Below the pieces are notes generated by a model. It did not search any database. It was not told the origin of the DNA and saw only the letters and a list, made by a program, of their open reading frames with translations. The position numbers were made by a program, and so were the translations under genes. From Yinghuangia soli (GTDB lineage Bacteria; Actinomycetota; Actinomycetes; Streptomycetales; Streptomycetaceae): DNA of 64,000 nucleotides. This document shows, piece by piece, positions 17,249 through 49,470 of the stretch. Every line of letters begins with the position of its first letter. Position 1 is the first letter of the stretch. The stretch is from assembly GCF_021502675.1 (NCBI RefSeq), contig NZ_JAKFHA010000021.1, positions 1 through 64,000 on the forward strand, given 5' to 3'.

Positions 17249-17308
17249 GTGCGTACTCCTGGAGTTGCGTTCCACGGTCGGGGTCCTCTGCCCTGCTGGG
17301 CGCGTTCC

Positions 17309-18496: not shown

Positions 18497-18528
18497 GCGG
18501 CAGCCTTTCGCCTTCGGCCAGTCGTCAT

Positions 18529-18547
18529 CATGGCTATCATGACCATG
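18529..18547. promoter_or_regulatory. 19-bp palindromic operator, copy 2
   Basis: CATGGCTATCATGACCATG, 16 of 19 bases identical to the copy at 12876-12894 and in the same orientation. It also lies exactly 33 bp from the minus-strand start codon (CaiB). Confidence 0.6.
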
Positions 18548-18584
18548 TTGGATTCCGACAGATCTTGCTTGCGCCGCTCTTTAA

Positions 18585-18602
18585 TGTAAGCGTTACGCAT
18601 AT
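18585..18602. promoter_or_regulatory. GTAA-GCG-TTAC element with ACGCATAT tail
   Basis: TGTAAGCGTTACGCATAT differs at one base from the 18 bases at 12938-12955. It lies upstream of the acyl-CoA synthetase. Confidence 0.5.
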
Positions 18603-18676
18603 AGTGCGCCCGTTCGGGTCGCGTTACGCTGCCTGCCCGGCAGCCAGTGAAGCCCCTTGATTCCAGGAGCTCTTCG

Positions 18677-20260
18677 GTGACCTCAGTTGCCTCCTCAACG
18701 CCCCCCGCACGTGCCCGGCGGCACGGGCTCGCCGATCTGCTGGCGCGTTCCGCGGTCCGGACCCCGGACAAGACCGCGGTGGTCTTCGGGGAGCTGCGGC
18801 AGAGCTTCGCGGAGCTGGACGCGCTGGTCACGCGGACCGCGGCGGGGTTCGCGGCGCGCGGGGTGGCCAAGGGCGACCGGATCGTGCTGCTGGCCCGGAA
18901 CTCGCACGGGTTCGCGGTGGCGTACTTCGCGCTGGCCCGGATCGGCGCGGTGTCGGTGCCGGTGAACTTCATGCTCACCCCGCCCGAGGTCGCCTACGTC
19001 CTCACCCACTCCGGCGCGGTCGGGGTCGTGGCGGGCGCGGACCTGGTGGTGACCGCGGACGCGGCGCTCGCGGAGGCGGGGCTGGACGTGACGGCTCTGA
19101 AGGTCCGCGCGGTGATCGGCGAGACCGAGGGCTGGGAGCCGTTCGCCGCACTCGGCGCCTCGGACGCGGCATGCCCCGAGGTGGACCTGGACGACGACGA
19201 CCCGGTGCAGATCATGTACACCTCCGGCACCGAGTCCCGCCCCAAGGGCGCGGTGATGACCAGCCGGAACCTCCTCGCCCAGTACACCACCGCGATCGTG
19301 GACGGCGGGATGAGCGCGGACGACGTGGAGATCCACGCGCTGCCGCTCTACCACTGCGCCCAGCTGCACTGCTTCCTGACCCCGGACGTCTACCTGGGCG
19401 CGACGTCGATCATCCTGCCCGCGCCCGACGCCGCGACCATCCTGGCGACGGTGGAGGCGGAGCGCGTCACGAAGCTGTTCTGCCCGCCGACGGTGTGGAT
19501 CGCGCTGCTGCGGCACCCGGACTTCGACACCCGCGACCTGTCCTCGCTGCGCAAGGGCTACTACGGCGCAGCCGCGATGCCCGTCGAGGTCCTCGCCGAA
19601 CTGCGCCGCCGACTCCCGCAGTTGGCGCTCTACAACTTCTACGGCCAGACCGAGATGTCCCCGGTCGCGACCATCCTCGGCCCCGCCGACCAGGAACGGA
19701 AGGCCGGTTCCGCGGGCCGGGCGGGGCTCAACGTCGAGACCCGGGTGGTGGACGACAACGACGAACCCGTCCCGGCCGGGGTGGTCGGGGAGATCGTGCA
19801 CCGCGGCCCGCACACCATGCTCGGCTACTGGAACGACCCCGACCGCACCGCCGAGGCGTTCCGCAACCAGTGGTTCCACAGCGGCGACCTGGGCGTCCTG
19901 GACGACGAGGGCTACCTCACCATCGTCGACCGCAAGAAGGACATGGTGAAGACCGGCGGCGAGAACGTCGCCGGACGCGAAGTCGAAGAAGTCATCCACG
20001 CCCACCCCGCCGTCGCCGAGGCGGCAGTGTTCGGGATCACCCACCCGTACTGGATCGAAGCCGTCACCGCCGTCATCGTCCCCAAGCCCGGCGAGAAGAT
20101 CGAACCCGACGAGATCACCGCGCACTGCCGCGAACACCTCGCCGGGTTCAAAGTCCCCAAATACGTCGTGATCACCGAAGCCCTGCCGAAGAACCCCAGC
20201 GGCAAAATCCTCAAGCGCGAACTACGCGACGCCTATGCGCACTTGGCCCATACGGAATAG
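18677..20260 (+). CDS. AMP-dependent acyl-CoA synthetase (FadD/ANL superfamily)
   Basis: A 527-residue adenylate-forming enzyme. It has the P-loop MYTSGTESRPKGAVMTSRN, LYNFYGQTEMSP, SGDLGVLDDEGYLTIVDRKKDMVKTGGENV (hinge and A8 motif) and a C-terminal KNPSGKILKRELR with the catalytic Lys. It activates a carboxylic acid with ATP and CoA; the chain type is not predictable. GTG at 18677 has AGGAG six bases upstream; ATG at 18647 lacks a site. It is divergent from the CaiB gene and shares its control region. It is unusually rich in G+C at third positions, even for this window. Confidence 0.93.
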   Translation: MTSVASSTPPARARRHGLADLLARSAVRTPDKTAVVFGELRQSFAELDALVTRTAAGFAARGVAKGDRIVLLARNSHGFAVAYFALARIGAVSVPVNFMLTPPEVAYVLTHSGAVGVVAGADLVVTADAALAEAGLDVTALKVRAVIGETEGWEPFAALGASDAACPEVDLDDDDPVQIMYTSGTESRPKGAVMTSRNLLAQYTTAIVDGGMSADDVEIHALPLYHCAQLHCFLTPDVYLGATSIILPAPDAATILATVEAERVTKLFCPPTVWIALLRHPDFDTRDLSSLRKGYYGAAAMPVEVLAELRRRLPQLALYNFYGQTEMSPVATILGPADQERKAGSAGRAGLNVETRVVDDNDEPVPAGVVGEIVHRGPHTMLGYWNDPDRTAEAFRNQWFHSGDLGVLDDEGYLTIVDRKKDMVKTGGENVAGREVEEVIHAHPAVAEAAVFGITHPYWIEAVTAVIVPKPGEKIEPDEITAHCREHLAGFKVPKYVVITEALPKNPSGKILKRELRDAYAHLAHTE

Positions 20261-20347
20261 TGCACAGGAGCAACGGCAGGACGCAGAGGACGTCGGCTTC
20301 TCCTGCACAAGCGGACGAGCCGCGCTGTGCCCGCGTCCCTCAAGGCC

Positions 20348-20364
20348 AGCTCGTACCCCGAGCT
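20348..20364. terminator. Short hairpin between convergent genes
   Basis: AGCTCG and CGAGCT with a 5-base loop, after the acyl-CoA synthetase and before the TetR stop. A weak terminator candidate. Confidence 0.3.
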
Positions 20365-20420
20365 AGCTGCTCAGTCGTACTCCGCCATCTGCCTCAACAG
20401 CGCACTGGCGAAGGCAACGG

Positions 20421-21179
20421 TCAAGGCTCCAAGCCCGTACTGCTGAATATCGGTACCAGCGCCGCCTGTCGGGCCTCGGCCACGCGCGGCCGTCCCGACT
20501 TTGCCACGCCCTTTCCCGACCGGTTCGCCATCGCGGCGATTGCGTCGACGGTGCTGTCGATGACAACGTCGTAGAGGCGCTCGAAGGCCGTCGGCAGTGC
20601 ATCGACGACCGGTCCGACGCGGCGCTGTTCCTCCTCGGTCGCCTGTTCCAAAGCTTGCTTCATGAGCGGGACCATGTCGACAGACGGGGTCCGCTTCGCA
20701 GCGAGCGTGGCCTGTCCCACGATGGTGGTTCCGACGAGCGCGATGGCGAGCGCCATGTCCTCGTCGTCCAACCGCAGAGGGCTCAACACCCCAGTCAGCA
20801 GGCTGAACGACGGCAACCACGCCGGCTGCCGGGTGGAGGCGATGTACGGCAGCAGCTGGGGATACGGCCGCAGGTGCTCCAGGCTCAGCAGCATCCACTC
20901 ACGGAGCTTCTCCTGCCACGTCAGGCCCTCGGGCGCGGTGAAACGCATGTCCGCCAGCACCCGGTCGGCCACTGCATGAAGGAGGTCGTCGCGATCGGGG
21001 AAGTAGCGGTACAACGCCATGGGCGCGGAGTCGGCAGCGTCCGCCACCCGCTTGATCGTCAACGGCTCGGTCGGGTCGTCGTACACCAACCCGACCGCCG
21101 CCTCGACGATCTGCTCGCGGGACAGGCGCGCAGGTCGTCCCCGTCCGCGCGTAGGTCCGCCTGTCGAGCCTTGGGTCAT
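20421..21179 (-). CDS. TetR-family transcriptional regulator (TetR-1)
   Basis: A 252-residue regulator. The basic N-terminus GPTRGRGRPARLSREQIVEAAVGLV leads to the helix-turn-helix LTIKRVADAADSAPMALYRYFPDRDDLL. The C-terminal domain (LRPYPQLLPYIASTRQPAWLPSF) is of the TetR_C type that binds a small hydrophobic ligand. ATG at 21179 has GGAGG eight bases upstream. It faces the acyl-CoA synthetase and is a candidate for the 19-bp palindromes at 12876 and 18529. Its own promoter (21228-21246) has TTACGCGTATGAC, related to the TTACGCATAT tails. Confidence 0.9.
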   Translation of the reverse strand: MTQGSTGGPTRGRGRPARLSREQIVEAAVGLVYDDPTEPLTIKRVADAADSAPMALYRYFPDRDDLLHAVADRVLADMRFTAPEGLTWQEKLREWMLLSLEHLRPYPQLLPYIASTRQPAWLPSFSLLTGVLSPLRLDDEDMALAIALVGTTIVGQATLAAKRTPSVDMVPLMKQALEQATEEEQRRVGPVVDALPTAFERLYDVVIDSTVDAIAAMANRSGKGVAKSGRPRVAEARQAALVPIFSSTGLEP

Positions 21180-21333
21180 CCCGGATCCCTCCACCACGCT
21201 GCACCCGCACCTGGCGGTGCCGTGACCCCAGATTACGCGTATGACCTACGCATTCGGAGGTCGGATAGCGGGAGGGTGGCAAGATCCCCGCCTCGTCGGC
21301 TGCAGCCTGTGCGCCCGACGAGGTGCCTGGAGC

Positions 21334-21987
21334 CTAGCGGCCTGCGTTCTCCTGGCCGGTTCGGTCCGCCTCCAGGGTGCCCAGCCATACCGCGGTCAGG
21401 GTGTCCAGCATCGCGGATCGTTCGCGTCCCCAGAGGCCGGCCTGCCAGGACGGCATGAATGTCTCCAGCTGGTTGATCAGCAAGAACGCGCGGCGCTTGG
21501 CTTCGGGCCGGGTGAAGTGCGTCCAGCGCTCCGGCGGCTGGAGGAGTGCATGGATGAACCGCTGCTGGTGCTCCAGGTGCTGCTCGCGCAGCGTGTGCGG
21601 AAGGTGCTCGGCGAAGACTTTGAGGGCCTTCTTGTTCCCGTCGGCGTCTACGTACCGGGTGAGCCAGCCGCGAATCGTGGCATGCGACCAGTCGGGCAGC
21701 GTGCCGAATTCCACGAACATGCTTTCGGTGTCACGCCAGATTCGAGCAGCCAGCTCGGCGACGATGTCGGCCTTGCCGGAGAAGTGCAAGTAGAAAGTGG
21801 CTCGCGCCGCCCCTGCGCGGGCGACTACATCGTCGATGGTGGCCGCCTCGTACCCCTTCTCTTCGAAGACGTCGACTGCCGCGGCCAGCAGACGCCGACG
21901 CGTGAGCTGCTTGTGCTGGGCACGCAGGTCCGAGGCCGGGACGGCGGGATCCGCGGCGCCGGCACGTCGGCGGGTAGGCGTTGGCAT
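21334..21987 (-). CDS. TetR-family transcriptional regulator (TetR-2)
   Basis: A 217-residue regulator with helix-turn-helix RRRLLAAAVDVFEEKGYEAATIDDVVARAGAARATFYLHFSGKADIV, a near-consensus TetR DNA-binding domain. The ligand domain is FVEFGTLPDWSHATIRGWLTRYV onward. The start is uncertain: ATG at 21987 has only GCGGA, and GTG at 22029 lies seven bases after the stop of the esterase gene. Either way it is co-transcribed with the esterase, which diverges from the Baeyer-Villiger monooxygenase. It is the best candidate for the palindrome at 23134-23148. Confidence 0.88.
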   Translation of the reverse strand: MPTPTRRRAGAADPAVPASDLRAQHKQLTRRRLLAAAVDVFEEKGYEAATIDDVVARAGAARATFYLHFSGKADIVAELAARIWRDTESMFVEFGTLPDWSHATIRGWLTRYVDADGNKKALKVFAEHLPHTLREQHLEHQQRFIHALLQPPERWTHFTRPEAKRRAFLLINQLETFMPSWQAGLWGRERSAMLDTLTAVWLGTLEADRTGQENAGR

Positions 21988-22035
21988 TCCGCAAGCGTAG
22001 TCAGTCCGCTTGTCTGAGTGCGCAACCACGGTGCG

Positions 22036-23004
22036 TCAGCCTTCCGCGGCGGCGCCGGCTCCCCTGCCTACTGCTCCGCGCAGACGCCGACAGGCATGGT
22101 CGAGCGCATCGGATGCGGCGGGCACGCGGGCGTAGTACGAGAGGAACCCGTGAGCGGTCCCTTTGACCTCCAGGACCTCGATGGATCCGCCGACGGCATT
22201 CACTGTCTCGGCGTACGCGTAGGCGTCATCGACGTTCAGGTCGAATTCCGGGGTGACGATCAACGCAGGGGGAAGCCCGGTGAAGTCGTCGGCGTGGAGC
22301 GGTGAGACGTACGGGTGCCGCAGGTCCGCGGAACCCGCGTACGTCCGCCACATGGACTGCGACGTCTGCCGGTTGACCATCGGCGCGTCGGCGTTCGCGA
22401 CGGTGGCTGGCCGCTCGGAGACAGCATCCAGGCCCGGGTAGGCGAGCAGTTGGAAGGCGAAGCGCGGGCCTTGCCGGTCCCGGGCCATATGGCCCGCGAC
22501 GGCGGCGAGGTTCCCGCCGGCGCTGTCGCCGCCGACAGCCACGCTCTCCGGGTCGATACCCACCTCTGCGGCATGCTCGACAACCCAGCAGGCCGCCGCA
22601 TAGAAGTCCTCGGCGGCGGCGGGAAAGACGTGCTCGGGCGCGAGGCGGTACTCGACGGACACCACGACACAGCCACTGCGGTTGGCGATCTCACGACAGA
22701 GACCGTCGTGGGTCTCGATGCTGCAGATGGACCACCCGCCCCCATGTGCGAAGACCAGCGCAGGCAGCCCTTCGTCGGCCGTCGGGTAGTAGAAGCGGAC
22801 GGGAACGTCTCCGTCCGGCCCGGGAATCGTCCGGTCGGCTACGGCATGCACGTCGGGGCGGGGTTGGAGGGCGGCGGCTGCATCGCTGCGTTCGCGGATG
22901 GCGACCACGGACTCGGGCGTGACCACAGGCAGCGGGGGTATCGCCGCCATGATCGCTGCGAACTCGGGCACGAGGGCGAATTGCCCCGCTTCAAGGTCCG
23001 TCAT
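22036..23004 (-). CDS. Alpha/beta hydrolase, hormone-sensitive-lipase family esterase
   Basis: A 322-residue esterase. The oxyanion-hole motif is FAHGGGWSI near residue 88. The nucleophile is in VAVGGDSAGGNLAAV (about 160), the Asp in VTPEFDLNVDD and the His in KGTAHGFLSYY. This is HSL/family IV. ATG at 23004 has GGAGG nine bases upstream. It diverges from the Baeyer-Villiger monooxygenase: a BVMO turns a ketone into an ester and an esterase hydrolyses it, a pairing known from several ketone-degradation operons. The substrate is likely a cyclic or linear ketone-derived ester. Confidence 0.92.
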   Translation of the reverse strand: MTDLEAGQFALVPEFAAIMAAIPPLPVVTPESVVAIRERSDAAAALQPRPDVHAVADRTIPGPDGDVPVRFYYPTADEGLPALVFAHGGGWSICSIETHDGLCREIANRSGCVVVSVEYRLAPEHVFPAAAEDFYAAACWVVEHAAEVGIDPESVAVGGDSAGGNLAAVAGHMARDRQGPRFAFQLLAYPGLDAVSERPATVANADAPMVNRQTSQSMWRTYAGSADLRHPYVSPLHADDFTGLPPALIVTPEFDLNVDDAYAYAETVNAVGGSIEVLEVKGTAHGFLSYYARVPAASDALDHACRRLRGAVGRGAGAAAEG

Positions 23005-23070
23005 GAGTACGCGCCTCCACTCGTCGCACCTTCACCTGCGTGACGACAACTTAGCCCTTCAGTAGACACG

Positions 23071-23102
23071 ATGTCCATCAAAGAGTCTCTCTGTATGGAC
23101 AT
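23071..23102. promoter_or_regulatory. Inverted ATGTCCAT / ATGGACAT repeat
   Basis: ATGTCCAT at 23071-23078 and its complement ATGGACAT at 23095-23102 lie in the esterase/BVMO divergent promoter. It may be a second operator, or two half-sites 24 bp apart. Confidence 0.45.
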
Positions 23103-23133
23103 GCCCAAGCCGCACGTGCATGATGACTTTCGC

Positions 23134-23148
23134 TAGACAGTCTGTCTA
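23134..23148. promoter_or_regulatory. Perfect 15-bp palindrome before the BVMO gene
   Basis: TAGACAG-T-CTGTCTA ends 22 bp upstream of the chosen BVMO ATG (23171). It is a typical TetR-operator shape; TetR-2 nearby is the candidate binder. Its position argues against the longer BVMO reading frame from 23120. Confidence 0.6.
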
Positions 23149-23170
23149 TTTCATGGCTACGGAGACTGGC

Positions 23171-25114
23171 ATGACGACCCCCCGTACCTTTGTCCACCAT
23201 CGGCCTGTCCCGAGCGACCTCCCCCTCAGTGGCCCAGGTGTTGACGCCGCGTCAGTGCGTGCGCAGCTCGCCGGGGCCGATCCGCGGACCCTGCTGATGG
23301 TGCTCACTCACCTGACCCGCGACTTGTCCCTCCTCGAGCGGTTCGCGAAGGTCTGCGACCCGTCGCACGCCGAGACCGGCGCGGAGCCGGACGCGGACGC
23401 AATACGCGACCTGCTGGCCGAGGTACTGACGAGCGGTCGGCCCGTCGACACGACGCCCCTGACCGATGCGTTGTTCCAGCGCCTCGCGTCGGCCTACGTT
23501 CACGAGCCGGTGGACGAGGAGTTCATCCCGCTCCTTCTCGATCAGTGCGGCTTCGCGAAGCTGGCGCCTGAGCCCTCGCACCCCCCGAAGGCCCTCTCGC
23601 GGCAGAGGGACTTCCACGTCGCGGTTATCGGTGCCGGGCTTTCCGGCATCTGCGCGGGCGTCAAACTCGGCGAAGCGGGTTACAGCTACCGCATCTACGA
23701 TCGCAACGAGGACGTCGGCGGCACCTGGCTCACCAACGTGTACCCGGGCGTCGGGGTGGACACCCCCAGCCACTTCTACTCCTACTCCTTCGAAGTCAAC
23801 CCGGACTGGCCCGAGTTCTACTCCAAGGGCGAGTACGTGCTCGACTACCTGCGCCGCTGTGCGGACGGGTACGGGGTGCGGGACCACGTCGAGTTCCAGA
23901 CCGAAGTCCTCAGCTGCGCCTACGACGACGCCTCCAAGCGCTGGGCCGTCACGGTTCGCGATCGCCGAGGCCAGGAGCGCGTCGACTGGGCCGATGCGGT
24001 GATCACCGCCATAGGTGTATTCCAGGGCGCGGTACGCCCCGACATCCCTGGCCTCGACGAGTTCGCCGGCATCGCCGTGCACACGGCCGAGTGGGATCCC
24101 GACCTCGATCTCACTGGTCGGCGGGTGGCGATGATCGGCACCGGCGCCAGCTCGATGCAGGTCGGACCGGCTATCGTCGACGATGTCGCCCAGTTGACGG
24201 TCTTCCAGCGCAGTCCTTCGTGGATCATGCCCCGCCGCAAGGATGACCTCACCGTCTCCGAGGGGGCCAACTGGGCCATGCGGCACGTACCCTTCTACGG
24301 CGAATGGTTCCGGTTCTTCACCTACTGGTTCGCGTCCGACGGCAACTTCGTGCGCGTCGTGATCGACCCCGAGTGGCACATGCCGGAAGTCTCGGTGTCC
24401 AAGCCCAGCGAAGACCTTCGGCAGTGGCTGCTGGCGTACGCCCGCGAAGAACTCGCCGACCGGCCGGACCTCCTGGAACGCGTGATTCCGGACTACCCGC
24501 CGTTCGGCAAGCGGATCCTGCGGGACAGCAACTGGTACCGGATGCTGAGGCAGGACCACGTCGAGCTGGTCACCGATGCCATCGAACGCGCCACGACGGG
24601 CGGACTGGTCACCGCGGACGGCCGCGAGGTCCCCGCGGACGTACTGATCCTCGCCACCGGCTACCAGGTGCTGCCGATGCTCGGTCAGATCGATATCACG
24701 GGCCGGAACGGAACAGCCCTGACCGATGTCTGGGGCCACGATGAGCCGCGTGCCCATCTGGGCACGACCGTGCCGGGTTTTCCGAACCTGTTCGTGCTGG
24801 CCGGGCCCAACAGCGCGCCGAACCACGGCGCCGGCGTCAACATCCTTGCGGAGAGCCAGATCCACTACATCGTGGGATGCCTCGATCTGCTCCACGAACG
24901 CGGCGCGCGGGTTCTGGAGCCGCGGCAGGACGTACACGACGCCTACAACGAGCGGGTGGACGAAGCGCTCGAAGGACGCGTGTGGAGCCACCCGAGCGTC
25001 CGCAGCTACTACCAGAACAGCAGCGGCCGCGTGATCGTGTCGTGCCCGTGGCGCCTGGTCGACTACTGGTCGATGCTCCGCGTTCCTGACGAGGATGAGT
25101 ACATCCTGAGCTGA
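23171..25114 (+). CDS. Baeyer-Villiger-type flavin monooxygenase
   Basis: A 647-residue class B monooxygenase. After a 130-residue N-terminal extension, the FAD motif VIGAGLSGICAGVKL is near residue 153, NEDVGGTWLTNVYPGVGVDTPSH next, the BVMO fingerprint FAGIAVHTAEWD near 298 (Asp where Pro is usual) and the NADPH motif MIGTGASSMQ. It inserts oxygen next to a ketone using NADPH and O2. ATG at 23171 has GGAG six bases upstream and lies after a perfect palindrome. The N-terminal extension resembles that of 4-hydroxyacetophenone monooxygenase-type enzymes. The product ester is probably cleaved by the divergent esterase. Confidence 0.92.
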   Translation: MTTPRTFVHHRPVPSDLPLSGPGVDAASVRAQLAGADPRTLLMVLTHLTRDLSLLERFAKVCDPSHAETGAEPDADAIRDLLAEVLTSGRPVDTTPLTDALFQRLASAYVHEPVDEEFIPLLLDQCGFAKLAPEPSHPPKALSRQRDFHVAVIGAGLSGICAGVKLGEAGYSYRIYDRNEDVGGTWLTNVYPGVGVDTPSHFYSYSFEVNPDWPEFYSKGEYVLDYLRRCADGYGVRDHVEFQTEVLSCAYDDASKRWAVTVRDRRGQERVDWADAVITAIGVFQGAVRPDIPGLDEFAGIAVHTAEWDPDLDLTGRRVAMIGTGASSMQVGPAIVDDVAQLTVFQRSPSWIMPRRKDDLTVSEGANWAMRHVPFYGEWFRFFTYWFASDGNFVRVVIDPEWHMPEVSVSKPSEDLRQWLLAYAREELADRPDLLERVIPDYPPFGKRILRDSNWYRMLRQDHVELVTDAIERATTGGLVTADGREVPADVLILATGYQVLPMLGQIDITGRNGTALTDVWGHDEPRAHLGTTVPGFPNLFVLAGPNSAPNHGAGVNILAESQIHYIVGCLDLLHERGARVLEPRQDVHDAYNERVDEALEGRVWSHPSVRSYYQNSSGRVIVSCPWRLVDYWSMLRVPDEDEYILS

Positions 25115-25253
25115 CTCCAAGGCAGCGCTCCAACGTTCGGCGGTTGCCCTCTCGACGATTCCAGCGTACGTATTACACAAATCTGTTCACCTGTCGGCGT
25201 GAGCTCCATGAGGCGTCCACGCCGACAGGGGTGCCTGAGTGGCAGGAGTGCAT

Positions 25254-25736
25254 GTGACCCCCCACGACCACCTCGCGGCCCACCAGTTGATTCACCGCTG
25301 GTGGTTCAACTACGACGAAGGCCGCCTCGAGGTCCTCGCCGGACTTCTCTCGGACGACTGCCACCTCGCGTCCCATACCGAGACCGGGCAGCACCCGCAC
25401 GAGGAGTTCATTCGCTCCGACAATCGCGGCCCCGATGCTGCGATGGCCTGGACAAGGGAGCACCGGAAGCACAGCCCCTACCCCTTGCGGCACCACGCGG
25501 CGAACATCCACGTCACGGCGGAGCGCGACGAGGAGGTCGACCTCTCCTCCTACCTGTTCGTCACCCAGATCGTCGATCGTTCGCCGAGCACCCTCTCCAG
25601 TGGCATCGTCCACTGGACACTGGTCAGGACCGGCGGCGGCTACAAGATCCGGCGCAAGGAGGTTGTGTTGGACTCGATCGAGTCCGCGGCCTTCCACGAG
25701 GTGGACTTCGTCGCGGACCGCCAGAAGTCCTGGTAG
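25254..25736 (+). CDS. SnoaL-like / NTF2-fold protein
   Basis: A 160-residue protein of the SnoaL_4 type: HLAAHQLIHRWWFNYDEGRLEVLAGLLSDDCHLASHTETG, a middle VDLSSYLFVTQIVDR strand and a final GGGYKIRRKEVVLDS. GTG at 25254 has GGAG six bases upstream; GTG at 25239 would add five residues. It lies 139 bp after the BVMO gene on the same strand, possibly as a downstream gene of that unit. Members are often fused to or paired with ring-hydroxylating or monooxygenase systems. The catalytic role is unknown. Confidence 0.8.
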   Translation: MTPHDHLAAHQLIHRWWFNYDEGRLEVLAGLLSDDCHLASHTETGQHPHEEFIRSDNRGPDAAMAWTREHRKHSPYPLRHHAANIHVTAERDEEVDLSSYLFVTQIVDRSPSTLSSGIVHWTLVRTGGGYKIRRKEVVLDSIESAAFHEVDFVADRQKSW

Positions 25737-25857: not shown

Positions 25858-27615
25858 TCAGTCCAGGAGGCTGTTCAGGAACGAGTTGGAGAACACCTTG
25901 TGGGGGTCGTACTGATTGAGTTGGGCAACCGCTGCGTCCCAGTTGTTGCCCGCAGGCAGGCCGACCCGGAACTGGTTCGGAACGGTGGCCGACAGCATCG
26001 TGCCGTCGGCCCAGGCTGCTGTGCCGCTGTAGCCCCAGCCCTTCGACCACTCCGGGCGCACCTGCGCGTATGCGCCGGAATAGTTGGCGAAGACCCATTG
26101 CTCGGTCTCACGGTAGAACTGCTGGCTGTACGGCGTTCCGGGCACCGTCAGGACGTCCAGCCACACCGCGACGTCCCACTCCGGGTGGTCCGGCCGGTTC
26201 CGCACCGCTGACAGCGTCGGAGGCACGGCCCCCGAGACTTGGGCGTCGGCGGGATTGTCCAGACCGGTGACGCGGATCTCCAGCGGGCCGTTCATCGGGT
26301 AGCGGCCCTGGCCGGCATACGTGTTCAGCGCGTTCTTGTAGTACGCGTAGAACTCGGCGACGACTTTCTGGATGTTGGCCCGCCTGGTGAGCACGGCGTA
26401 TCCGTTGGCGTGCACCCGCATGGTGGTCGGCTTGACGTACAGCATCGTGTTCTTCGACCAGCCCCACAGGTCCCAGCTGCCCGTGGTGATCAGCCCCGCC
26501 GCGACCACACCGAACTGCGTCTGGCAGAACGTCGGAGTCAGATTGGCCGCTCCGGCGGTGATCTGCCCGAGGAGGTCGGCCGCGCCCTCCGACAGGAAGT
26601 CGCTGAAGGGGTAGTTGTAGGGACTCCCGACCTCTTTGGCCAGGAACGGCTTCGTCGGGGTGACCGACCACACCTTGAGCCAGGGATTGTCGGTGAAGGG
26701 GAACCAAATCGCCTCGACGCGACCTGTGCGGTCGACGAAGCCGGCGAACGAATTGCTTCCTGCCGTTGCGGGTTGGGCGAACAGATCGTCTGCCCCGATG
26801 TTGACCCAGCTCTGGCACCGCAGACGCTTGTTGGCGCCGACGCGGAGTGTCACCTCGGTGACGAAACCGCGGCCGAGGTTCACCAGCAGGGCCCCGATGG
26901 CCGGATCGTTGCGCTGGAAGGTCCGCAGCCTGTAGGCGTTTGCCGCGGGATCCCACACCACGGCGGCGAGCGAAACGATCAGATTGCTGAGCGTCCCGAA
27001 GGTATGGCCGGGGGTGGCGGATTCCCCGGTCTTGGGAACAGCGGTACCGTGCCCGTCGATGGCAAGCACACCGCCGAGGCTGAGGTCGCCGGGGGCAGGA
27101 GTCGCGGTGAGGCCGAGGCCGACGTTCTCCAGCGCCTGCAACAGGGCCATCATCGAGACCCCTGTCTGAGCCGTGACACTCGCCGGGTTGCCGGCGGAGA
27201 CGGCCACGGCTTTGAGGTGCTGGGTGGTGTCGAGCAGCAGGATGTTCGTCGGCGCGCCTTGCTGGATCAGCAGGGGCGACCAGTTGTGGCTGAAGCCCTT
27301 CGCCCGAAGCTTCCACCCTTGCGCGCGCGCCCAGTTCGCGAGCGCGACTACCTGCTCCGGTGTCGCGGGGGCGCACGTCCAGACGTCGTCGACGCGAGTT
27401 TCGCCTGACCAGTTGCGGTAGCCCTGGAGGTACGCGGTGACTCCCGATGGAAGCCCGGGCGGAGCCGGTACGGCAGCATCCGCAGCCTCGACTCGGAACG
27501 CCGGGGTCCACTGGGCTGCCGTGAGCGCAGCGGCTCCGACGAGCCCCCCGAGGAGCGCGCGCCGGCCTACGCCGGCTGCCGTGCCGGCGTCGTTGGTGTC
27601 GAGCCGATCGTTCAT
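25858..27615 (-). CDS. FAD-linked oxidase, cholesterol-oxidase (class II)-like, Tat-exported
   Basis: A 585-residue VAO-type flavoprotein. A twin-arginine signal (GRRALLGGLVGAAALTAAQW) starts near residue 17. The FAD-binding half has TCAPATPEQVVALANWARAQGWKLRAKGFSHNWSPL and GDLSLGGVLAIDGHGTAVP. The second half resembles the cholesterol oxidase substrate-binding domain, up to QYDPHKVFSNSFL at the C-terminus. His in GFSHNW is a possible site of covalent FAD attachment. ATG at 27615 has AAAGGG upstream. Class II enzymes oxidise and isomerise cholesterol to cholest-4-en-3-one; other secreted alcohol oxidases share the fold, so the substrate needs testing. Confidence 0.85.
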   Translation of the reverse strand: MNDRLDTNDAGTAAGVGRRALLGGLVGAAALTAAQWTPAFRVEAADAAVPAPPGLPSGVTAYLQGYRNWSGETRVDDVWTCAPATPEQVVALANWARAQGWKLRAKGFSHNWSPLLIQQGAPTNILLLDTTQHLKAVAVSAGNPASVTAQTGVSMMALLQALENVGLGLTATPAPGDLSLGGVLAIDGHGTAVPKTGESATPGHTFGTLSNLIVSLAAVVWDPAANAYRLRTFQRNDPAIGALLVNLGRGFVTEVTLRVGANKRLRCQSWVNIGADDLFAQPATAGSNSFAGFVDRTGRVEAIWFPFTDNPWLKVWSVTPTKPFLAKEVGSPYNYPFSDFLSEGAADLLGQITAGAANLTPTFCQTQFGVVAAGLITTGSWDLWGWSKNTMLYVKPTTMRVHANGYAVLTRRANIQKVVAEFYAYYKNALNTYAGQGRYPMNGPLEIRVTGLDNPADAQVSGAVPPTLSAVRNRPDHPEWDVAVWLDVLTVPGTPYSQQFYRETEQWVFANYSGAYAQVRPEWSKGWGYSGTAAWADGTMLSATVPNQFRVGLPAGNNWDAAVAQLNQYDPHKVFSNSFLNSLLD

Positions 27616-28384
27616 GGTGTCCCTTTCCCTTGCGAGTGACCGGCCCGGATCGTCGACGGACGATCGAGCGGAACTGCATGATCCGGTTCCGGTTCGTGCC
27701 ACGGGGATGCCTCCCCGTCGCGCTTGGGGAGGGACGTTCGGGAACGCAGGTGTGCCAGGTGGGCGTGCTGATCAAGCCCTCGCAAGTGCCGACCGGGGTC
27801 ACTTGGGCTCGGCAAAGCCGCCGGGATGCATCCTTGCAATGCGCTGCCGGCGCAATCCGGGTCGTCATCCGACAGGCGAGGTAGCGCGTGCAACCTTCCG
27901 AGTAGAGTGCGCCGCCGCGCACCCCAAGTCAAGCCGTTCCCCACTGGTGACACGTGTCAATTTACGTGGGCGCAAAGCAAAACACGGGCAGTTTCTTCCC
28001 TTTGCGAGCACATAACCGATACGTCGGGCACCCGCGCAGCGGGTGCGCTACGCCGCTCCGCGAGCCTGGCGCCCGGGGAAGGCACGCGCCTCGGGCGATG
28101 TTGCGCAACACCCGACATGGAAACCCGACTTGGCGCGCGAGTCGACCCAGGACCAAAATTTCGTACTCGTTACACTAATGCTCTTCATCAATCAAGGGCA
28201 TAGGCGTCGGCTAGGCTCCGGCGCCCAGCGCGGTTGATGTCGCCCACAGATCCGTTTCAGGCCTCAGGTCTGCTTCGTTGATCCGGGTGTGCGACTGGGG
28301 GACGTCGCGTGTTCGGGCACCACACCACCCATTCGTTCAGAGCGGGCCGGCTCGGCCGCCCCTCCCCAGCCATGGCAGGCGAAC
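27616..28384. promoter_or_regulatory. 769-bp divergent intergenic region with several palindromes
   Basis: No credible gene is visible; the open frames here lack family features. The region holds a LacI-type operator copy (27880-27895), a 12-bp palindrome TGACACGTGTCA (27948-27959), a hairpin GCACCCGC-GCA-GCGGGTGC (28028-28046) and a 12-bp palindrome TGTTGCGCAACA (28099-28110). A lower-GC patch around 28150-28200 (TTACACTAATG) may hold the promoter of the solute-binding protein. Confidence 0.5.
27880..27895. promoter_or_regulatory. LacI-type operator, copy H
   Basis: GGTAGCGCGTGCAACC is one base from the complement of the consensus GGTTGCGCGCGCTACC seen at seven other intergenic sites. It lies 265 bp upstream of the cholesterol-oxidase-like gene. 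A degenerate partner (10 of 16 bases) sits 38 bp to the left. Confidence 0.5.
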
Positions 28385-29968
28385 GTGTTTCGCTTCACCT
28401 TCGCGCCCATCCGCCGCCGCGGGAGTCGTGCTTTCGCCATAGCGGCAGCTGCGGCTCTCCTGGTCACAACCTCCTGCGCGCCCGAGGGACAGGACAAGCC
28501 CAACGCGCAGCTCACTCCCGGCCAGGGAGGCGTCCTACGCGTGGCTATCCCGGCAGACCCCGGCTCCCTGGATCCGTTCACCACACCCGCATACGCCGTG
28601 GCGTACGGGAACGTGCTGTCCGCGATCTACGACCCGCTGGTGTGGGCCGATCCAGCTACAGGCACCGTCCAGCCCAACATCGCCGAGTCACTCACCGCCG
28701 ACGGTGACGCTCGCGTGTGGACCCTCACGATCCGTCCGAACGTGGCGTTCTCCGACGGACAGCCATTCGACGCAGCAGCAGTCAAGGCGAACTGGCTCGC
28801 CCATGCGGAGCCCGCAACCGGATCGGCGGGTGCCGTCGTCGCTGCAGGGCTCAAACTGACGATCACGGCACCCCTACGCCTGAGCATTGAACTACCCAGC
28901 CCCAACGCGAACTTCGACCGCGCGGTCGCGAACAACCTGGCCTACATCGCCTCCCCGCGTGCCCTGGCCGACCTCAACACCCTGCGCGCCAGCCCGGTAG
29001 GCGCCGGCCCCTTCGTGCTGGCCGAACGCAAACCTGGCGAACAGCTCACACTACGAAGGAACCCGCGCTACTGGCAGGCTGGCCGCCCCTACCTCGATCG
29101 ACTCGAATTCCGCGTCGCCCCACCGGGTAAAAGCCTGCCCGAAGCTGTGGACGCGGGCGGCATCGATCTTGCGTCGTTCAGCGACCCCATGCAGGCCAAG
29201 GAGGCCACTGATCAGGAATTGGGTGTGATTCGCCTGAGTCTGAGCGGCGGGCTCATGCTCGCCTTCAACACCCGCAAGCCGCCGTTCGACAACCCGGCGA
29301 CCCGCCGGGCAGTCGCCAACAGTCTCAGCACGGCGGAGATCAACCGCCGATTCTTCGCCGATGCAGGGACCCCGGCGCAGGGGATCTTCGCACTCGCGTC
29401 GCCGCTCGCGAGCCCGCAGCTCGCGGCACCGAACGACGACCGAGAAGCGGCACGTGCCGCATTCGACACCCTGACTCTCGGTGGCACTCGCCCGGTGCGG
29501 TTCTCACTATTGATCGTCGGCGGCGGTCAAGACCCCAATTCCCAGGCCGGCTACATCAGACAACAGGTCGAGCAATTCCCTGGCGTGCACTTGCAGATCG
29601 AGGATGTCGACACGCCGACGCTCATCCGGCGCACGATTGCCGGGGATTTCGACATCGCAGTTTCCGGCATGTGGATGAGCGACCCGGAGCCGGTTCTGTA
29701 CGACTTCCTGCGGCCTGGGAGCCCTACCAACGTCAGCGGGTACTCGAACGCCGTGGTGACCGAGGCCATGAATAGCGGCCGCCTGTCCACCGACACCGAG
29801 AGCAGACGCGCGGCATATACACGTGTACAACTGCGGCTCAACGAGGACGTGCCCTTCTGGGTCTACCAAGAGGCCGCCAGCACCGTCGTCTTCGCTCCAA
29901 CAGTCACGGGCGTCCAGCCCTACAACGACGGCCTGGTGCTGTTCGACCGCGTAGGCCTGCGCGCCTGA
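28385..29968 (+). CDS. Solute-binding lipoprotein, ABC family 5 (peptide/nickel type)
   Basis: A 527-residue extracellular binding protein. The N-terminus is basic (RRRGSRAFAIAAAAALLVTTSCAPEG), with a lipobox around TTSC near residue 31. Family-5 features follow: GGVLRVAIPADPGSLDPF, then IYDPLVWADPATGTVQPNIAESLTADGDARVWTLTIRPNVAFSDGQPFDAAAVKANW. GTG at 28385 is preferred because it gives a normal lipoprotein signal; GTG at 28289 would add 32 unlikely residues. No permease or ATPase genes of the same system are nearby, so it is an orphan binding protein. The ligand is probably a peptide or an oligosaccharide. Confidence 0.9.
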   Translation: MFRFTFAPIRRRGSRAFAIAAAAALLVTTSCAPEGQDKPNAQLTPGQGGVLRVAIPADPGSLDPFTTPAYAVAYGNVLSAIYDPLVWADPATGTVQPNIAESLTADGDARVWTLTIRPNVAFSDGQPFDAAAVKANWLAHAEPATGSAGAVVAAGLKLTITAPLRLSIELPSPNANFDRAVANNLAYIASPRALADLNTLRASPVGAGPFVLAERKPGEQLTLRRNPRYWQAGRPYLDRLEFRVAPPGKSLPEAVDAGGIDLASFSDPMQAKEATDQELGVIRLSLSGGLMLAFNTRKPPFDNPATRRAVANSLSTAEINRRFFADAGTPAQGIFALASPLASPQLAAPNDDREAARAAFDTLTLGGTRPVRFSLLIVGGGQDPNSQAGYIRQQVEQFPGVHLQIEDVDTPTLIRRTIAGDFDIAVSGMWMSDPEPVLYDFLRPGSPTNVSGYSNAVVTEAMNSGRLSTDTESRRAAYTRVQLRLNEDVPFWVYQEAASTVVFAPTVTGVQPYNDGLVLFDRVGLRA

Positions 29969-30200: not shown

Positions 30201-30647
30201 TCAGTGGCCGGCGGGGGTGATCTCCAGGACGAAGACAGGGATCTCGCGGTCCGTCTTCTCCTGGTATTCCGCGTAGTCCGGGTACGCAGCGAGTGCACGT
30301 GCCCACCACAGGTTCTTTTCGTCCCCGACAACCTGCCGAGCAGTCATGTCCTGACGCTGCGGCCCGTCCTGGAGTTCGACGCGCGGGTCAGCGATGAGGT
30401 TGTGGTACCACTGCGGGTGTCGGGGAGCCCCACCTTGCGACGCGACCGCCGCGTACACCCCGTCGTGCTCGATGCACATGACCGGCGTCTTGCGGAGGTT
30501 CCCGCTGGTCGCCCCCAGCGTCGTCAGCAACACCACAGGCATTCCCCGGAATGTGGTGCTCTCCAGGCCTCCAGAGCCTTCGTACGCCGCAACGTGGTCG
30601 CGCACCCATTTCTGGGCGCTCGGCTCGTACTCGCCCTTCAACGGCAT
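30201..30647 (-). CDS. Deazaflavin (F420)-dependent nitroreductase-family protein
   Basis: A 148-residue split-barrel protein of the Ddn / F420H2-dependent quinone reductase family. It has [58 protein letters not shown], the classic family stretch that binds F420, and [22 protein letters not shown] at the end. ATG at 30647 has GGAGG upstream. It implies an F420-producing host. Its promoter carries a 21-bp palindrome shared with the oxygenase gene at the right edge. The role may be reduction of a quinone or a lipid-like substrate. Confidence 0.92.
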
Positions 30648-32018: not shown

Positions 32019-33485
32019 CTACTCCTCGGTCGGCGGCCCGGCGTCCATCTGCGCAACAGGCCTCAGGCGGGGGACAAGGAAGGTGGTCAGCAGCACCAGC
32101 AACAGCGCCACTGCAGCCCACCGGAACACGTTCACGTACCCCTGGTCGAGGTAGAACTGCGTGCCTTGGACGACGGTGCCGTCCCGGGCCAGGATCGCGT
32201 AGGACGCCGCGATGGCAACCGAGGCGATGATGCCGAGGACAAGCCCCTGCACCATGTTGGCGATTCCCTGTTCCTCGGGTTCCACGGCCTCCATGATCAT
32301 CACGTACACCGTCGAGATGACCATGCCGTAGCCGACGGAGAACACCATCGAGACGACCGCCAGTTGGGCAGCCGAATAGTGATACGAGGCCAGCAGGAGG
32401 AGCCCGATCGCGGCAACGACCAAACCGGCCCTCAGCGGGAGTCGGCTGTCGATCCGGCGGACCGCGAACCCTGTCGCGGCACCCGTGGCCAGCATGAGGA
32501 TGTTCGCCGGCAGCCCGATCACCGCGTTGTGCGTGACGCTGAATCCGAGGCCGTCGGACACCCCGGGAATGTCGGGGTACAACGGAAGCAGCTGCAGAAT
32601 GGGCCCGACCGCGGAGAGCACGCCGAGCGCGGCAGCCGTGGTCAGGAAGACCGACCAGACCGGCCGACGCTTCAGCATCCCCAGAGGGACCATCGGGTGG
32701 GCTACGCGCGCCTGGGAGATCACGAACACCACCAGGCCCAAGGCTCCGCCGACCATGAAGGCGAGCGTGCCGGTCGAAGTCCACCCCCAGTCGGAACCCT
32801 TGCCGACGCCGTAGGTGATGGCGGTGACGCTCCCGCCCAGCAGCAGGCCGCCGATCCAGTCCATGTGGACGTCGGTCCGGGCAATCGGCGGCGTGCTCGG
32901 CATGAAGAAGATCAGCAGCAGCAAACCGATCGCCGTGGCGATCACGAAGCTCCACAGCGCCCCCCGGAAGCCGAAGTCGTCCAGCAGCCAGCCGGACAAG
33001 AACGGGCCGCCGATCGCAACCAGGCCGACCCCTGAGGCGACGATGCTGCTCGCGGTGGCGGCTTGCTTGGGTGGGAAGAGCTCGCGGATCGCTGCATACG
33101 CCAAGATGCTGATGGGTGCATAGAAGCCCGCAATCGCACGCCCGGCGATCATCACCCCGAAGGTCGGAGCCACCGCTGCGATCACGTCCCCGATCAGCCC
33201 GAGCACCGTGATGGCGATCATCACCGTACGACGGCCGAAGATGTCGGCGGCCTTCATCACGTACGGGGTGACCAGCGTTCCCACCACGCCGGTGGCCAGC
33301 GCGAACCAGGCGATCTGCGTGGTGTGGAAGTGCATGGCGATCTGCGCCTGCGCAGAGCCGCCGACCAGCGCGATGAGCGTCAAGAGCTGGGTAGGCCACA
33401 GCAAAGCAAGAACGATGAGAGCAGCCATGAGCCCGCGGCGTGGTTCGGGTCGGCGGTCCGCCACGGGAGCGGGGAAGGTTTGCAT
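32019..33485 (-). CDS. MFS transporter, DHA2-like
   Basis: A 488-residue major-facilitator protein. It begins MQTFPAPVADRRPEPRRG, then the first span LMAALIVLALLWPTQLLTLIALVG. The loop motif is KAADIFGRRTVMIAI and motif C is GVGLVAIGGPFLSGWLL. It is related in layout to the MFS gene at 9720, including a DWxGxLL segment before span 7. ATG at 33485 is chosen; the longer frame to 33632 has no transporter features. It heads an MFS-GH1 unit behind a pair of LacI-type operators, so its cargo is probably a beta-glycoside or its product. Confidence 0.87.
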   Translation of the reverse strand: MQTFPAPVADRRPEPRRGLMAALIVLALLWPTQLLTLIALVGGSAQAQIAMHFHTTQIAWFALATGVVGTLVTPYVMKAADIFGRRTVMIAITVLGLIGDVIAAVAPTFGVMIAGRAIAGFYAPISILAYAAIRELFPPKQAATASSIVASGVGLVAIGGPFLSGWLLDDFGFRGALWSFVIATAIGLLLLIFFMPSTPPIARTDVHMDWIGGLLLGGSVTAITYGVGKGSDWGWTSTGTLAFMVGGALGLVVFVISQARVAHPMVPLGMLKRRPVWSVFLTTAAALGVLSAVGPILQLLPLYPDIPGVSDGLGFSVTHNAVIGLPANILMLATGAATGFAVRRIDSRLPLRAGLVVAAIGLLLLASYHYSAAQLAVVSMVFSVGYGMVISTVYVMIMEAVEPEEQGIANMVQGLVLGIIASVAIAASYAILARDGTVVQGTQFYLDQGYVNVFRWAAVALLLVLLTTFLVPRLRPVAQMDAGPPTEE

Positions 33486-33869
33486 GGCTGTGGTACCTCT
33501 TTGCACAGACCGGCCGACGTGCTGCCGGCAGGTTGATCGGGTGTGACGACTACGATCTGGCGCCCGCCGCGGTGCCGTGCGGGACGCGCGCCGGCTGGCG
33601 CGCTCCGAGACGGCGGCGTCGGCCGCGATCACCGCGGTGGCGGGACTCGGCGCATGCGGTCAGCGAAGCGTCTGGGGACCAGGCATCAGGCTGCCCTGGG
33701 CGGCGCTGTGACCGCGGATGCGAGCCCGTAGTGCTGCGCTCAAATCAAATCCCTGGTCCGATTGGTCCCGAGTCCTGCGCAATGATGATGGTTGCGCGCG
33801 CTACCCGCCGAAGGTAGCCGATCGCAAGTAGCACGCGCAACCCTTTGGCGGACCAAGATCGCCGACCTG
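33486..33869. promoter_or_regulatory. Control region of the MFS-GH1 unit
   Basis: A 384-bp gap without a gene, between the ABC exporter stop and the MFS start. It holds two LacI-type operators near its right end (33790-33842), about 305 bp before the MFS start. The rest shows nothing recognisable. Confidence 0.55.
33790..33842. promoter_or_regulatory. Paired LacI-type operators A and B
   Basis: GGTTGCGCGCGCTACC (33790-33805) and, inverted, AGTAGCACGCGCAACC (33827-33842), spaced 37 bp start to start. Confidence 0.7.
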
Positions 33870-35702
33870 CTATGTCGTCCGTGGTCGATCCGAGGCCGCG
33901 GCACCTCGACGGAACTGCGCTGCGTGCAGGGCACGGTAAGCACCGCCCGTCCTGGCCACGAGCTCTTGGTGAGTGCCTTGTTCGACGATTCGTCCTCGCT
34001 CCATGACCACGATCGTGTCGGCGTCGCGGATCGTGGACAGACGATGGGCGATCACAAACGCGGTCCGCCCCTCACGCAGCCGGGCCATGGCCTGCTGGAT
34101 CAGCACCTCGGTACGGGTGTCGACGGAACTGGTCGCCTCATCCAGGATCAGGATCGTGGGGTCGGCGAGAAAGGCTCTGGCAATGGTGAGGAGCTGCTTC
34201 TCCCCCGCGCTGAGGCCGGCCCCGCCCTCATCGTCCAGCACCGTTTCGTATCCGGCCGGCAGTGTGCGGATGAAGCGGTCGGCATGAGCGGATCTGGCGG
34301 CCGCGACCACCTGTTCCCGCGTGGCATGCCGGGCGCCGTAGGCGATGTTGTCGGCAATCGTGCCGCCGAAAAGCCACGTGTCCTGCAGCACCATGCCGAT
34401 GCGGGATCGAAGGTCGGCGCGGGACATGGTCGCGATGTCGACTCCGTCGAGGGTGATGCGTCCTCCGGTGATCTCGTAGAACCGCATCAGGAGATTGACG
34501 AGCGTGGTCTTGCCCGCGCCGGTGGGCCCGACAATGGCCACGGTGTGACCGGGTTCCGCAACCAGAGACAGCGACTCGATCAGCGGCTCGGCCAGGGTGT
34601 ACCTGAAAGAGACGTCCTCGAATGCGACGCGGCCGGCACCCGATGACGGCACAGGCACGGCAGGCTCGGGCTTCTCCTCGCTCGCGTCGAGCAGGTCGAA
34701 CACCCGCTCGGCCGAGGCCATCCCGGACTGAACCATGCCCAGCATGCCCGCGATCATCCCGAGCGGCTGACTGAACTGCCGGGAGAACTGGACGAAGGCC
34801 TGGACTTCGCCGACGGTGAGCGCCCCGGAGGCGATCCGGAGGCCGCCGACGGCCGCAACGAGCACGTAGTTGAGGTTGCCCACGAACATCATCAGGGGCT
34901 GGGTCAGTCCTGACGTTGCCTGGGCGCGCCGAGAAGCCTCGTAAAGGCTCTCGTTCTCGGCGTCGAACGCCGCGAGCGCCTGGTCCTCGCGGCCGAAGGC
35001 CTTGACCAGGGCGTGCCCTGTGTACATCTCCTCGATGTGGCCGTTGAGGCGCCCCGTGTGGCGCCACTGTCGGGTGAACTCGGGCTGGGAGCGCTTGCCG
35101 ATCCACGCCATTGCGAGCAAGGAGAGCGGCACGGTCAGCAAGGCGATCAGCGCCAGCAGCCAGGAGATCCAGAACATCACCCCGAGAACCGCGACGATGG
35201 TCAACGCCGACATGACCAGCTGACCGACGACCTGCTGCAGGCACTGCGCGAGGTTGTCGATGTCGTTGGTGACCCGGCTGATGATGTCGCCGCGCCGCTT
35301 GCGGTCGTAGTAGCTCAGCGGAATCCGGGAGAGCTTGCGCTCGACGTCGTGCCGCATCTGACGAGCGGCATGTTGCACGGCGGTGTTCGCGAGGCGGCCT
35401 TGCACGACACCGCACAGCCCCCCGGCGACGTAGACCGCTGCCGTCCAGGCGAGCACCCGGGCCACGGCCCCGAAGTCGATGCCCGCGCCGGCGTCGTCCA
35501 GGATGCCGCTGACGACGAGGTCGGTCGCATGGCCCAGCAGAACCGGGCCGGCCACGGTCAGGCCAACACTGGCCACGCCGAGTACGAGCAGCGCGGTGAA
35601 CTGTCCGCGCCGCTGAGCCAACAGCCGCACGGTGCGGGCTGCGGTCCCGACGAAATCCGACGAGTGCTCAGGGTGGTCGGCGTCGGTCTTGGCGCCGCTC
35701 AC
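33870..35702 (-). CDS. ABC exporter half-transporter (TMD-NBD), subunit 2
   Basis: A 610-residue type IV exporter subunit. Six spans (GQFTALLVLGVASVGLTVAGPVLL onward) are followed by a nucleotide-binding domain with Walker A VGPTGAGKTTLV, signature GLSAGEKQLLTIARA (Ala in place of the second Gly) and Walker B ILILDEATSSVDTRTE. The ATG overlaps the stop of the upstream subunit gene by four bases (ATGA), so the two form a heterodimer. Such pairs usually export drugs, lipids or peptides. It is the last gene of the lac-gal run, an odd place for an exporter; a role in sugar or glycoside efflux is only inferred. Confidence 0.92.
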   Translation of the reverse strand: MSGAKTDADHPEHSSDFVGTAARTVRLLAQRRGQFTALLVLGVASVGLTVAGPVLLGHATDLVVSGILDDAGAGIDFGAVARVLAWTAAVYVAGGLCGVVQGRLANTAVQHAARQMRHDVERKLSRIPLSYYDRKRRGDIISRVTNDIDNLAQCLQQVVGQLVMSALTIVAVLGVMFWISWLLALIALLTVPLSLLAMAWIGKRSQPEFTRQWRHTGRLNGHIEEMYTGHALVKAFGREDQALAAFDAENESLYEASRRAQATSGLTQPLMMFVGNLNYVLVAAVGGLRIASGALTVGEVQAFVQFSRQFSQPLGMIAGMLGMVQSGMASAERVFDLLDASEEKPEPAVPVPSSGAGRVAFEDVSFRYTLAEPLIESLSLVAEPGHTVAIVGPTGAGKTTLVNLLMRFYEITGGRITLDGVDIATMSRADLRSRIGMVLQDTWLFGGTIADNIAYGARHATREQVVAAARSAHADRFIRTLPAGYETVLDDEGGAGLSAGEKQLLTIARAFLADPTILILDEATSSVDTRTEVLIQQAMARLREGRTAFVIAHRLSTIRDADTIVVMERGRIVEQGTHQELVARTGGAYRALHAAQFRRGAAASDRPRTT

Positions 35703-41801: not shown

Positions 41802-46136
<4,335 letters not shown>

Positions 46137-49416: not shown

Positions 49417-49470
49417 TGTTGCGCGCGCTACCTGGACATCATAACCTGCGCCCTAGTTGCGCGCGCTACC
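49417..49470. promoter_or_regulatory. Paired LacI-type operators E and F
   Basis: TGTTGCGCGCGCTACC (49417-49432) and AGTTGCGCGCGCTACC (49455-49470), direct repeats 38 bp apart, between the LacI-2 and GH3 genes. This suggests autoregulation. Confidence 0.8.

Follow-up and report, generated by a model that had tools for sequence, protein, structure and literature searches.

We analysed the first 64,000 nucleotides (64 kb) of contig C14 of Yinghuangia soli (NZ_JAKFHA010000021.1; 142,658 bp), referred to here as the window; the contig belongs to a draft genome of 9.7 Mb that is 96% complete. Genes were called with a simple codon-based gene caller and families were taken from Pfam and NCBIfam. The subject is a gene for a cholesterol oxidase homologue, the gap upstream of it, and a putative operator in that gap that appears to tie the gene to a set of glycoside genes under a LacI-type regulator, which we call LacI-2. 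The features of the gene and its control region are:

25858 to 27615, minus strand: class II (VAO-family) cholesterol oxidase homologue of 585 amino acids (aa) with a Tat-type (twin-arginine translocation) signal; from Pfam, PDB matches and residue columns
27669 to 27691, minus strand: dyad CGGAAC-N11-GTTCCG in the predicted 5' leader, conserved in seven aligned upstream regions
27880 to 27894, plus strand: putative LacI-2 operator GGTAGCGCGTGCAAC, at about +4 to +18 of the predicted oxidase transcript; from exact-match scans
27904 to 27932, minus strand: predicted oxidase promoter, -35 TTGACT (27932-27927), 17 nt, -10 CACTCT (27909-27904); layout conserved in seven aligned sequences
27948 to 27959: perfect palindrome TGACACGTGTCA upstream of the -35; from conservation and genome frequency
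28099 to 28110: perfect palindrome TGTTGCGCAACA, a function of which found no support

Counted from its first GTG the open reading frame of the oxidase spans 25858-27702. The ATG at 27615, preceded by AAGGGAAAGGGA, is the better start and yields the protein of 585 aa, which begins with MNDRLDTNDAGTAAGVGRRALLGG and has GVGRRALLGG and a hydrophobic stretch. The substrate domain PF09129 was matched at E 3.9e-150 over model positions 1-320 of 321 (residues 264-584), and PF01565 (FAD_binding_4) at E 1.6e-10. PDB matches included three solved class II cholesterol oxidases, 3js8 (E 1.1e-217), 1i19 and 2i0k, and almost all of the mature protein is covered by solved relatives. The loci returned by the oxidase homologue searches, plus two paralogues of this genome, were aligned in 45 rows; Y. 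seranimata is present twice, L050-L053 were left out and weaker family matches without loci are not included. In this alignment H110, E446 and R448 are the equivalents of His121, Glu475 and Arg477 of Brevibacterium sterolicum. The predicted catalytic residues E446 and R448 were each kept in all 45 rows; the predicted covalent-FAD histidine H110 was kept in 44, as was E301, which we take to play the role of Glu311. The exception in both columns is the same Frankia row (L049). According to the accessible part of PMC7588053, His121 of the B. sterolicum enzyme binds FAD covalently and Glu475 and Arg477 are catalytic. Homologues at E <1e-30 occurred in 68 of 150 genomes of the family. The preliminary description of the window had called the product a Tat-signal flavoprotein that resembles cholesterol oxidases. 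Both statements hold: the Tat-type protein carries a FAD_binding_4 domain with conserved FAD-binding residues, and full-length PF09129, the three structures and the kept catalytic residues place it in the cholesterol oxidase family. By its sequence the protein is almost certainly a cholesterol oxidase of class II (3-beta-hydroxysteroid oxidase) and is predicted to be exported; as a protein it is an ordinary new family member.

A LacI-type operator had been proposed at 27880, and its occurrence there is far beyond chance. The operator pattern GGTAGCGCGYGCAAC, a 15-mer in which C or T is allowed at one position, had exactly six matches in the genome, all of them on C14 (27880, 33791, 45047, 49418, 49456 and 76038). 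Among 394 family genomes only three had an exact match, this one with six and two others with one each; the reversed pattern gave one match in one genome. About 2 matches in 3.3 Gb correspond to about 5 in ten million per 769-bp gap, an estimate from the listed sizes. With up to one mismatch 13 rows were obtained in the genome, 11 on C14 (10 places, one found on both strands) and two elsewhere, versus three rows for the reversed control. A scan with up to three mismatches added two weaker sites with two mismatches each (33828 and 45010), so that 12 sites in eight promoter regions are counted in all, spread over 27.9 to 76.1 kb of C14. Operator-like sequences at 27318 and 19330, with three mismatches each, lie inside genes and were dropped as chance matches. 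Another LacI-type protein is encoded at 14879-15826. We rejected it as the regulator, because it has a different recognition helix and its gene has no operator of this kind nearby.

The remaining operators and the genes next to them in the window are:

28385 to 29968, plus strand: divergent lipoprotein, family 5 extracellular solute-binding protein (PF00496); from Pfam, homologues by lacI and a glycoside hydrolase family 3 (GH3) gene on contig C48
30752 to 31924, minus strand: GH1 beta-glycosidase (Pfam); nearest solved relative SGR_2426
32019 to 33485, minus strand: transporter of the major facilitator superfamily (MFS); best NCBIfam match the DHA2 efflux family, below the model cut-off
33791 to 33842: two LacI-2 operators before the MFS-GH1 pair, 33791 exact and 33828 with two mismatches
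33870 to 37432, minus strand: two ATP-binding cassette (ABC) exporter half-transporters (ABC_membrane and ABC_tran) at the end of the GH2-gal string; from domain matches
37514 to 41761, minus strand: galM, galK, galE and galT of the Leloir pathway; from family matches
41802 to 44852, minus strand: GH2 LacZ-type beta-galactosidase, first gene of the string; from family matches
45010 to 45061: two LacI-2 operators between GH2 and the GFO/IDH/MocA gene at 45150, 45010 with two mismatches and 45047 exact
48384 to 49388, minus strand: LacI-2 regulator; from a family match
49418 to 49470: two exact LacI-2 operators (49418 and 49456) between lacI-2 and GH3
49562 to 51823, plus strand: GH3 glycosidase; from a family match
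53020 to 53034, plus strand: LacI-2 operator with one mismatch before transporter genes
53277 to 59764, plus strand: ABC importer of the branched-chain-amino-acid type, comprising an MFS-ATPase fusion, a permease-ATPase fusion and a binding lipoprotein; from family matches
59952 to 62591, plus strand: second GH3 glycosidase; from a family match

The gene string that starts with GH2 continues with galT, galE, galK, galM and the two exporter halves; one transcript per string is an assumption. Beyond the window, operators precede GH2 (64957)/GH43 (67743), a GDSL esterase (71886)/GH78 rhamnosidase (73228) and a binding protein (76203). The binding protein of the importer had no solved relative at E 1e-5. 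The relative of the GH1 enzyme, SGR_2426, acts on beta-1,2-linked glucose according to the accessible part of PMC12369401. The gene families together imply galactose, glucose, pentose and rhamnose as the sugars of the regulon. These four are the set found in many saponins. Because the same operators precede lacI-2, glycosidase, gal and transporter genes, the oxidase very probably is a member of the LacI-2 glycoside regulon. The preliminary description had assigned it in part to such a regulon, and with one operator type before lacI-2 and six further promoter regions, mostly of glycoside genes, that assignment is strong at the sequence level.

Several other genes lie among or beside these strings. 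Between the GFO/IDH/MocA gene and lacI-2 a SpoIIE-type phosphatase with GAF, PAS and HATPase domains is encoded (46270-48336), to which no operator was assigned, and a homologue of F420H2-dependent quinone reductases (30201-30647) adjoins the GH1 gene. Genes for a Baeyer-Villiger monooxygenase (BVMO), an alpha/beta hydrolase, a short-chain dehydrogenase/reductase (SDR), a CoA ligase and a CoA-transferase are found with two TetR regulators at 16487-25736, outside the LacI-2 operators. The fusions of the importer (53277-58385) join an MFS domain to an ABC ATPase and permease domains to a second ATPase. The MFS-ATPase fusion was matched at E 1e-150 in seven of 150 family genomes, with one to five copies each and in two genera only (g1 and g4 of our set); one homologue, with a GH3 gene close by, is encoded on the large Embleya replicon NZ_CP108785.1.

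A parallel set of genes was found on contig C48 (L121:3456-19534), where a LacI protein 60% identical to LacI-2 is accompanied by a GH3 enzyme (67%) and a solute-binding lipoprotein (59%) as well as by homologues of the BVMO (74%), alpha/beta hydrolase (75%), SDR and TetR genes of the window. Two variant operators, CTAGCGCGCGCTAG and CTAGCACGCGCAAG, in which the outermost base G is changed to C, both lie between lacI and GH3, in the same place as the LacI-2 sites. This supports a tie between such operators and this type of LacI. The variant type also occurs before GH78 and an importer on contig C28 and at C17 and C18 of Y. seranimata; it was not found in genome G018, and the reversed control gave two rows per strand in this genome. 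The comparison suggests that the regulon of the window is a duplicated and retuned version, with specificity changed between the duplicates.

The origin of the oxidase gene was traced through its relatives. Two further copies are present in the genome, C1:755717-757471 (79% aa identity) and C22:67405-69126 (71%), and the closest named relative is that of Y. seranimata with 78% identity. The 45-row tree unites the copies from the window, C1 and Y. seranimata in a clade with a support of 100/98. Inside this clade C1 and Y. seranimata pair (96/76); C22 splits off earlier (100/99 for the whole group including C22). The C1 copy and the single Y. seranimata copy have similar neighbours, judged by eye (polyphosphate kinase 2-like, trehalose-synthesis-like and murC-like genes), and because the kinds of neighbours match, the C1 copy probably is the ancestral one. 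The tree therefore points to the window oxidase as an old duplicate in a new neighbourhood. Both paralogues lie in neighbourhoods different from that of the window copy and neither has a LacI-2 operator.

The control region, from the oxidase start to the divergent gene start at 28385, was said to be 769 bp long and measures exactly that (27616-28384). Seven upstream regions, those of the window, of C1, of Y. seranimata and of four genomes of genus g4 (by inference probably Embleya), share a layout of (C/T)GACACGTGTCACC, then TTGAC(A/T), 17 nt and a -10 ending in CT; the distance from the palindrome to the -35 differs among them. Nearer the gene CGGAA-N13-TTCCG was kept in all seven, which cover two genera. 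A search with a strict oxidase motif missed many homologues and resolved only four loci for the dyad, three with it and the C22 copy without it; alignments were used instead. Among the aligned regions the operator is present in the window copy only, in a stretch that the others do not have. The promoter layout is present at the C1 paralogue and in Y. seranimata, and no LacI-2 operator was found at either by upstream alignment and genome scans. The simplest reading of these sequences is that an old oxidase promoter gained a LacI operator.

Two perfect 12-bp palindromes had been noted in the gap, and both are perfect as described. Their number was rejected as evidence: 0.34 are expected, and P(>=2) = 0.052 in a first-order Markov model of the 769-bp region with 2000 samples is borderline. 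As control elements they fared differently. The palindrome at 27948 is beyond chance, because it is conserved in relatives and frequent in the genome, with 38 places at up to one mismatch versus two for the reversed pattern, and it is a conserved element that belongs to the ancestral control of the oxidase. The palindrome at 28099 is unique in the genome in its exact form and showed only mild enrichment (26 places versus nine), so that a control role was not borne out. We considered it as a half-spaced LacI site and rejected this: GTTGC/GCAAC is common, but the spacing is 4 bp shorter, the exact form is unique and the enrichment is mild. Upstream of the C22 copy CGACACGTGTCG stands about 50 bp from the ATG in place of the conserved palindrome. 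The 27948 type was not found within 800 bp upstream at any of 13 oxidase loci of genus g2. The upstream survey covered 47 loci, of which six were unresolved (L024, L025, L046, L047, L049 and L053); L051 had no usable upstream DNA and L023 offered 543 bases only, and palindromes with one mismatch near the gene start in L029 and L032 were not counted as conserved. Of the genomic places, 15 were opened (L067-L081); by eye several lie 50-350 bp before exported-, transport- or redox-looking genes, and four (L076, L077, L080 and L081) are inside a called gene. Such palindromes, e.g. the one at 27948 in the window and those in L067, L068, L070, L071 and L072, are strongly over-represented and are often extended by CACC.

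KstR was rejected as the reader of the 27948 palindrome, as the best KstR-like regulators of the three genomes of the genus stayed below the model cut-off; 13 of 14 control genomes also gave sub-cut-off matches. The KstR motif, as we take it to be, differs from this palindrome. A KstR-like TetR regulator below the cut-off (L133:1459-2106) is present in all three genus genomes, and in this genome the 3' end of the regulator gene overlaps with a TGACACGTGTCG site.

The preliminary description had suggested that the substrate is a sterol or an aglycone released from a steryl glycoside, which is plausible and which we can only infer. The gene families fit a pairing of hydrolases that match the sugars with an enzyme that oxidises a 3-beta-hydroxyl group, in the style of Sphingobium RC1 (see below). 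By N-terminal hydrophobicity, the one property compared, the regulon glycosidases have no export-like segment and the oxidase has one. The glycosidases thus look cytoplasmic and the oxidase exported, so an aglycone would need to be re-exported. KshA (PF19298) was not found in the three genomes of the genus, all drafts searched with this one marker family; in the same kind of search 40 of 197 genomes of the class exceeded the cut-off. The compartment mismatch and the KshA result together disfavor a plain route of steryl-glycoside degradation. We propose a route of import, deglycosylation, export and oxidation, because it fits both the compartment split and the KshA negative. Without a glycoside LacI-2 would block transcription through the operator over the predicted start of the oxidase transcript. 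A glycoside bearing galactose, glucose, pentose or rhamnose would enter the cell and lose its sugars in the cytoplasm, and its hydrophobic 3-beta-hydroxy core would be expelled by the ABC pair of the regulon or by the DHA2-like MFS transporter. Outside, the exported oxidase would convert the core to a 3-keto product, which would amount to detoxification or modification and not to growth on the ring system.

We favor the view that an exported class II oxidase co-regulated by LacI-2 oxidises a pumped-out aglycone, and give this reading as a whole a probability of roughly 0.6. Some of its parts are less secure: a steroid-like aglycone as the substrate falls somewhat short of even odds, and the order of export before oxidation is tentative and rather doubtful. 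The fullest version, in which the cell takes up a toxic steroidal glycoside of plants, feeds on its sugars in the cytoplasm and expels the intact aglycone, which is then oxidised outside by a dedicated oxidase recruited via operator capture after duplication, i.e. saponin feeding and detoxification without steroid degradation, is unlikely in all its details. Several points weigh against our reading. The single operator at 27880 could also serve the divergent gene at 28385, and glycosides of triterpenes or flavonoids match the regulon sugars as well. The KshA negative comes from draft genomes, this one being 96% complete, and from a single marker family. With cytoplasmic-looking glycosidases and an exported oxidase a step of aglycone export would be required. 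A consensus promoter scan of 27600-28420 returned no promoter, so that the assignment of the -35 and -10 rests on conservation. Finally, the operator set was seen in none of the 393 other family genomes; there is thus no independent replicate of the coupling between oxidase and LacI-2, and conservation of the operator in relatives was not possible as an argument.

Three other explanations were weighed. It is somewhat unlikely that the glycosides handled by the regulon are those of triterpenoids or flavonoids and that the oxidase has a non-steroid alcohol as its substrate or a class II fold drifted in specificity, though GH78 rhamnosidase, GH43 and GH1/GH3 in the regulon speak for it, as such families fit many plant glycosides. 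So do the related loci on C28 and on C17 of Y. seranimata, which have GH78 and an importer and, in the stretches examined, no oxidase, and the failure to find KshA in the three genomes of the genus. Against it, the substrate domain is of full length (PF09129 1-320 of 321), the four checked active-site positions are kept, and two characterised Rhodococcus enzymes of class II oxidise sterols including plant sterols (PMC7588053, accessible part). An ordinary exported sterol oxidase, directed against fungal or animal membranes or serving as a peroxide source, might have acquired its operator by chance when it was duplicated beside a sugar locus; the two other copies in different neighbourhoods without the operator and the spread of homologues over 68 of 150 family genomes are in line with this. 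We consider it quite improbable, since only two of the 393 other family genomes have an exact operator, a single one in either case, which makes an accidental placement in the oxidase promoter unlikely. Least probable of the three, and very unlikely, is that the operator at 27880 serves the divergent lipoprotein gene and that the oxidase is merely adjacent. Homologues of the lipoprotein do adjoin the paralogous lacI-GH3 pair on C48, and because of this the lipoprotein belongs to this gene neighbourhood. Yet the operator, 490 bp from the start of that gene, overlaps the start predicted for the conserved oxidase promoter, and on C48 the lipoprotein genes have no such site before them, both variant operators being placed between lacI and GH3.

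The enzyme shares the VAO-type FAD domain, the full PF09129 domain, the covalent-FAD histidine and the catalytic Glu/Arg pair with the class II oxidases of B. sterolicum (1i19), Chromobacterium sp. (3js8) and Rhodococcus (ChoRI/ChoRII); it differs in that its gene sits in a LacI glycoside regulon. In the accessible part of PMC7588053 the class II oxidases of R. erythropolis accept plant sterols and ChoRII is suggested to begin the degradation of phytosterols; in the genome studied here, by contrast, KshA was not found. The nearest studied analogue is the catabolism of steroidal glycoalkaloids by Sphingobium sp. RC1, which, as far as PMC10653915 is accessible, uses glycoside hydrolases (GH3, GH39 and GH106) and 3-beta-hydroxysteroid dehydrogenases (3-beta-HSD) on alpha-tomatine. 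In RC1 hydrolases are combined with a second enzyme for the freed 3-beta-hydroxyl group, and the gene content of the window would fit such a combination; RC1 has 3-beta-HSD and other hydrolases, whereas the window encodes an oxidase that looks exported and has exporter genes and a set of LacI operators.

In local sugar regulons of the LacI family LacI is autoregulated, and pairs of palindromic operators precede the hydrolase and transporter genes. The window shares the autoregulation layout and the paired operators, and adds a sterol-oxidase gene and efflux-like transporters; its importer is of the branched-chain-amino-acid type in contrast to the usual sugar importer. Among the literature matches listed for saponins, glycoalkaloids and cholesterol oxidase, which cover the field in part through titles and the beginnings of abstracts, none reported a cholesterol oxidase in a LacI glycoside regulon, and the accessible part of PMC10096415 mentions cholesterol oxidase only as a known Rhodococcus enzyme. 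The coupling of the oxidase to the glycoside regulon is the apparent novelty and the enzyme itself is ordinary.

To our knowledge the natural role of bacterial cholesterol oxidases outside steroid degraders is often unclear. If the proposed reading is true, it would link these enzymes to the use of plant glycosides and would show how a gene copy was rewired by a single operator added to an old promoter. It would also offer an inducer-based route to saponin-modifying enzymes.

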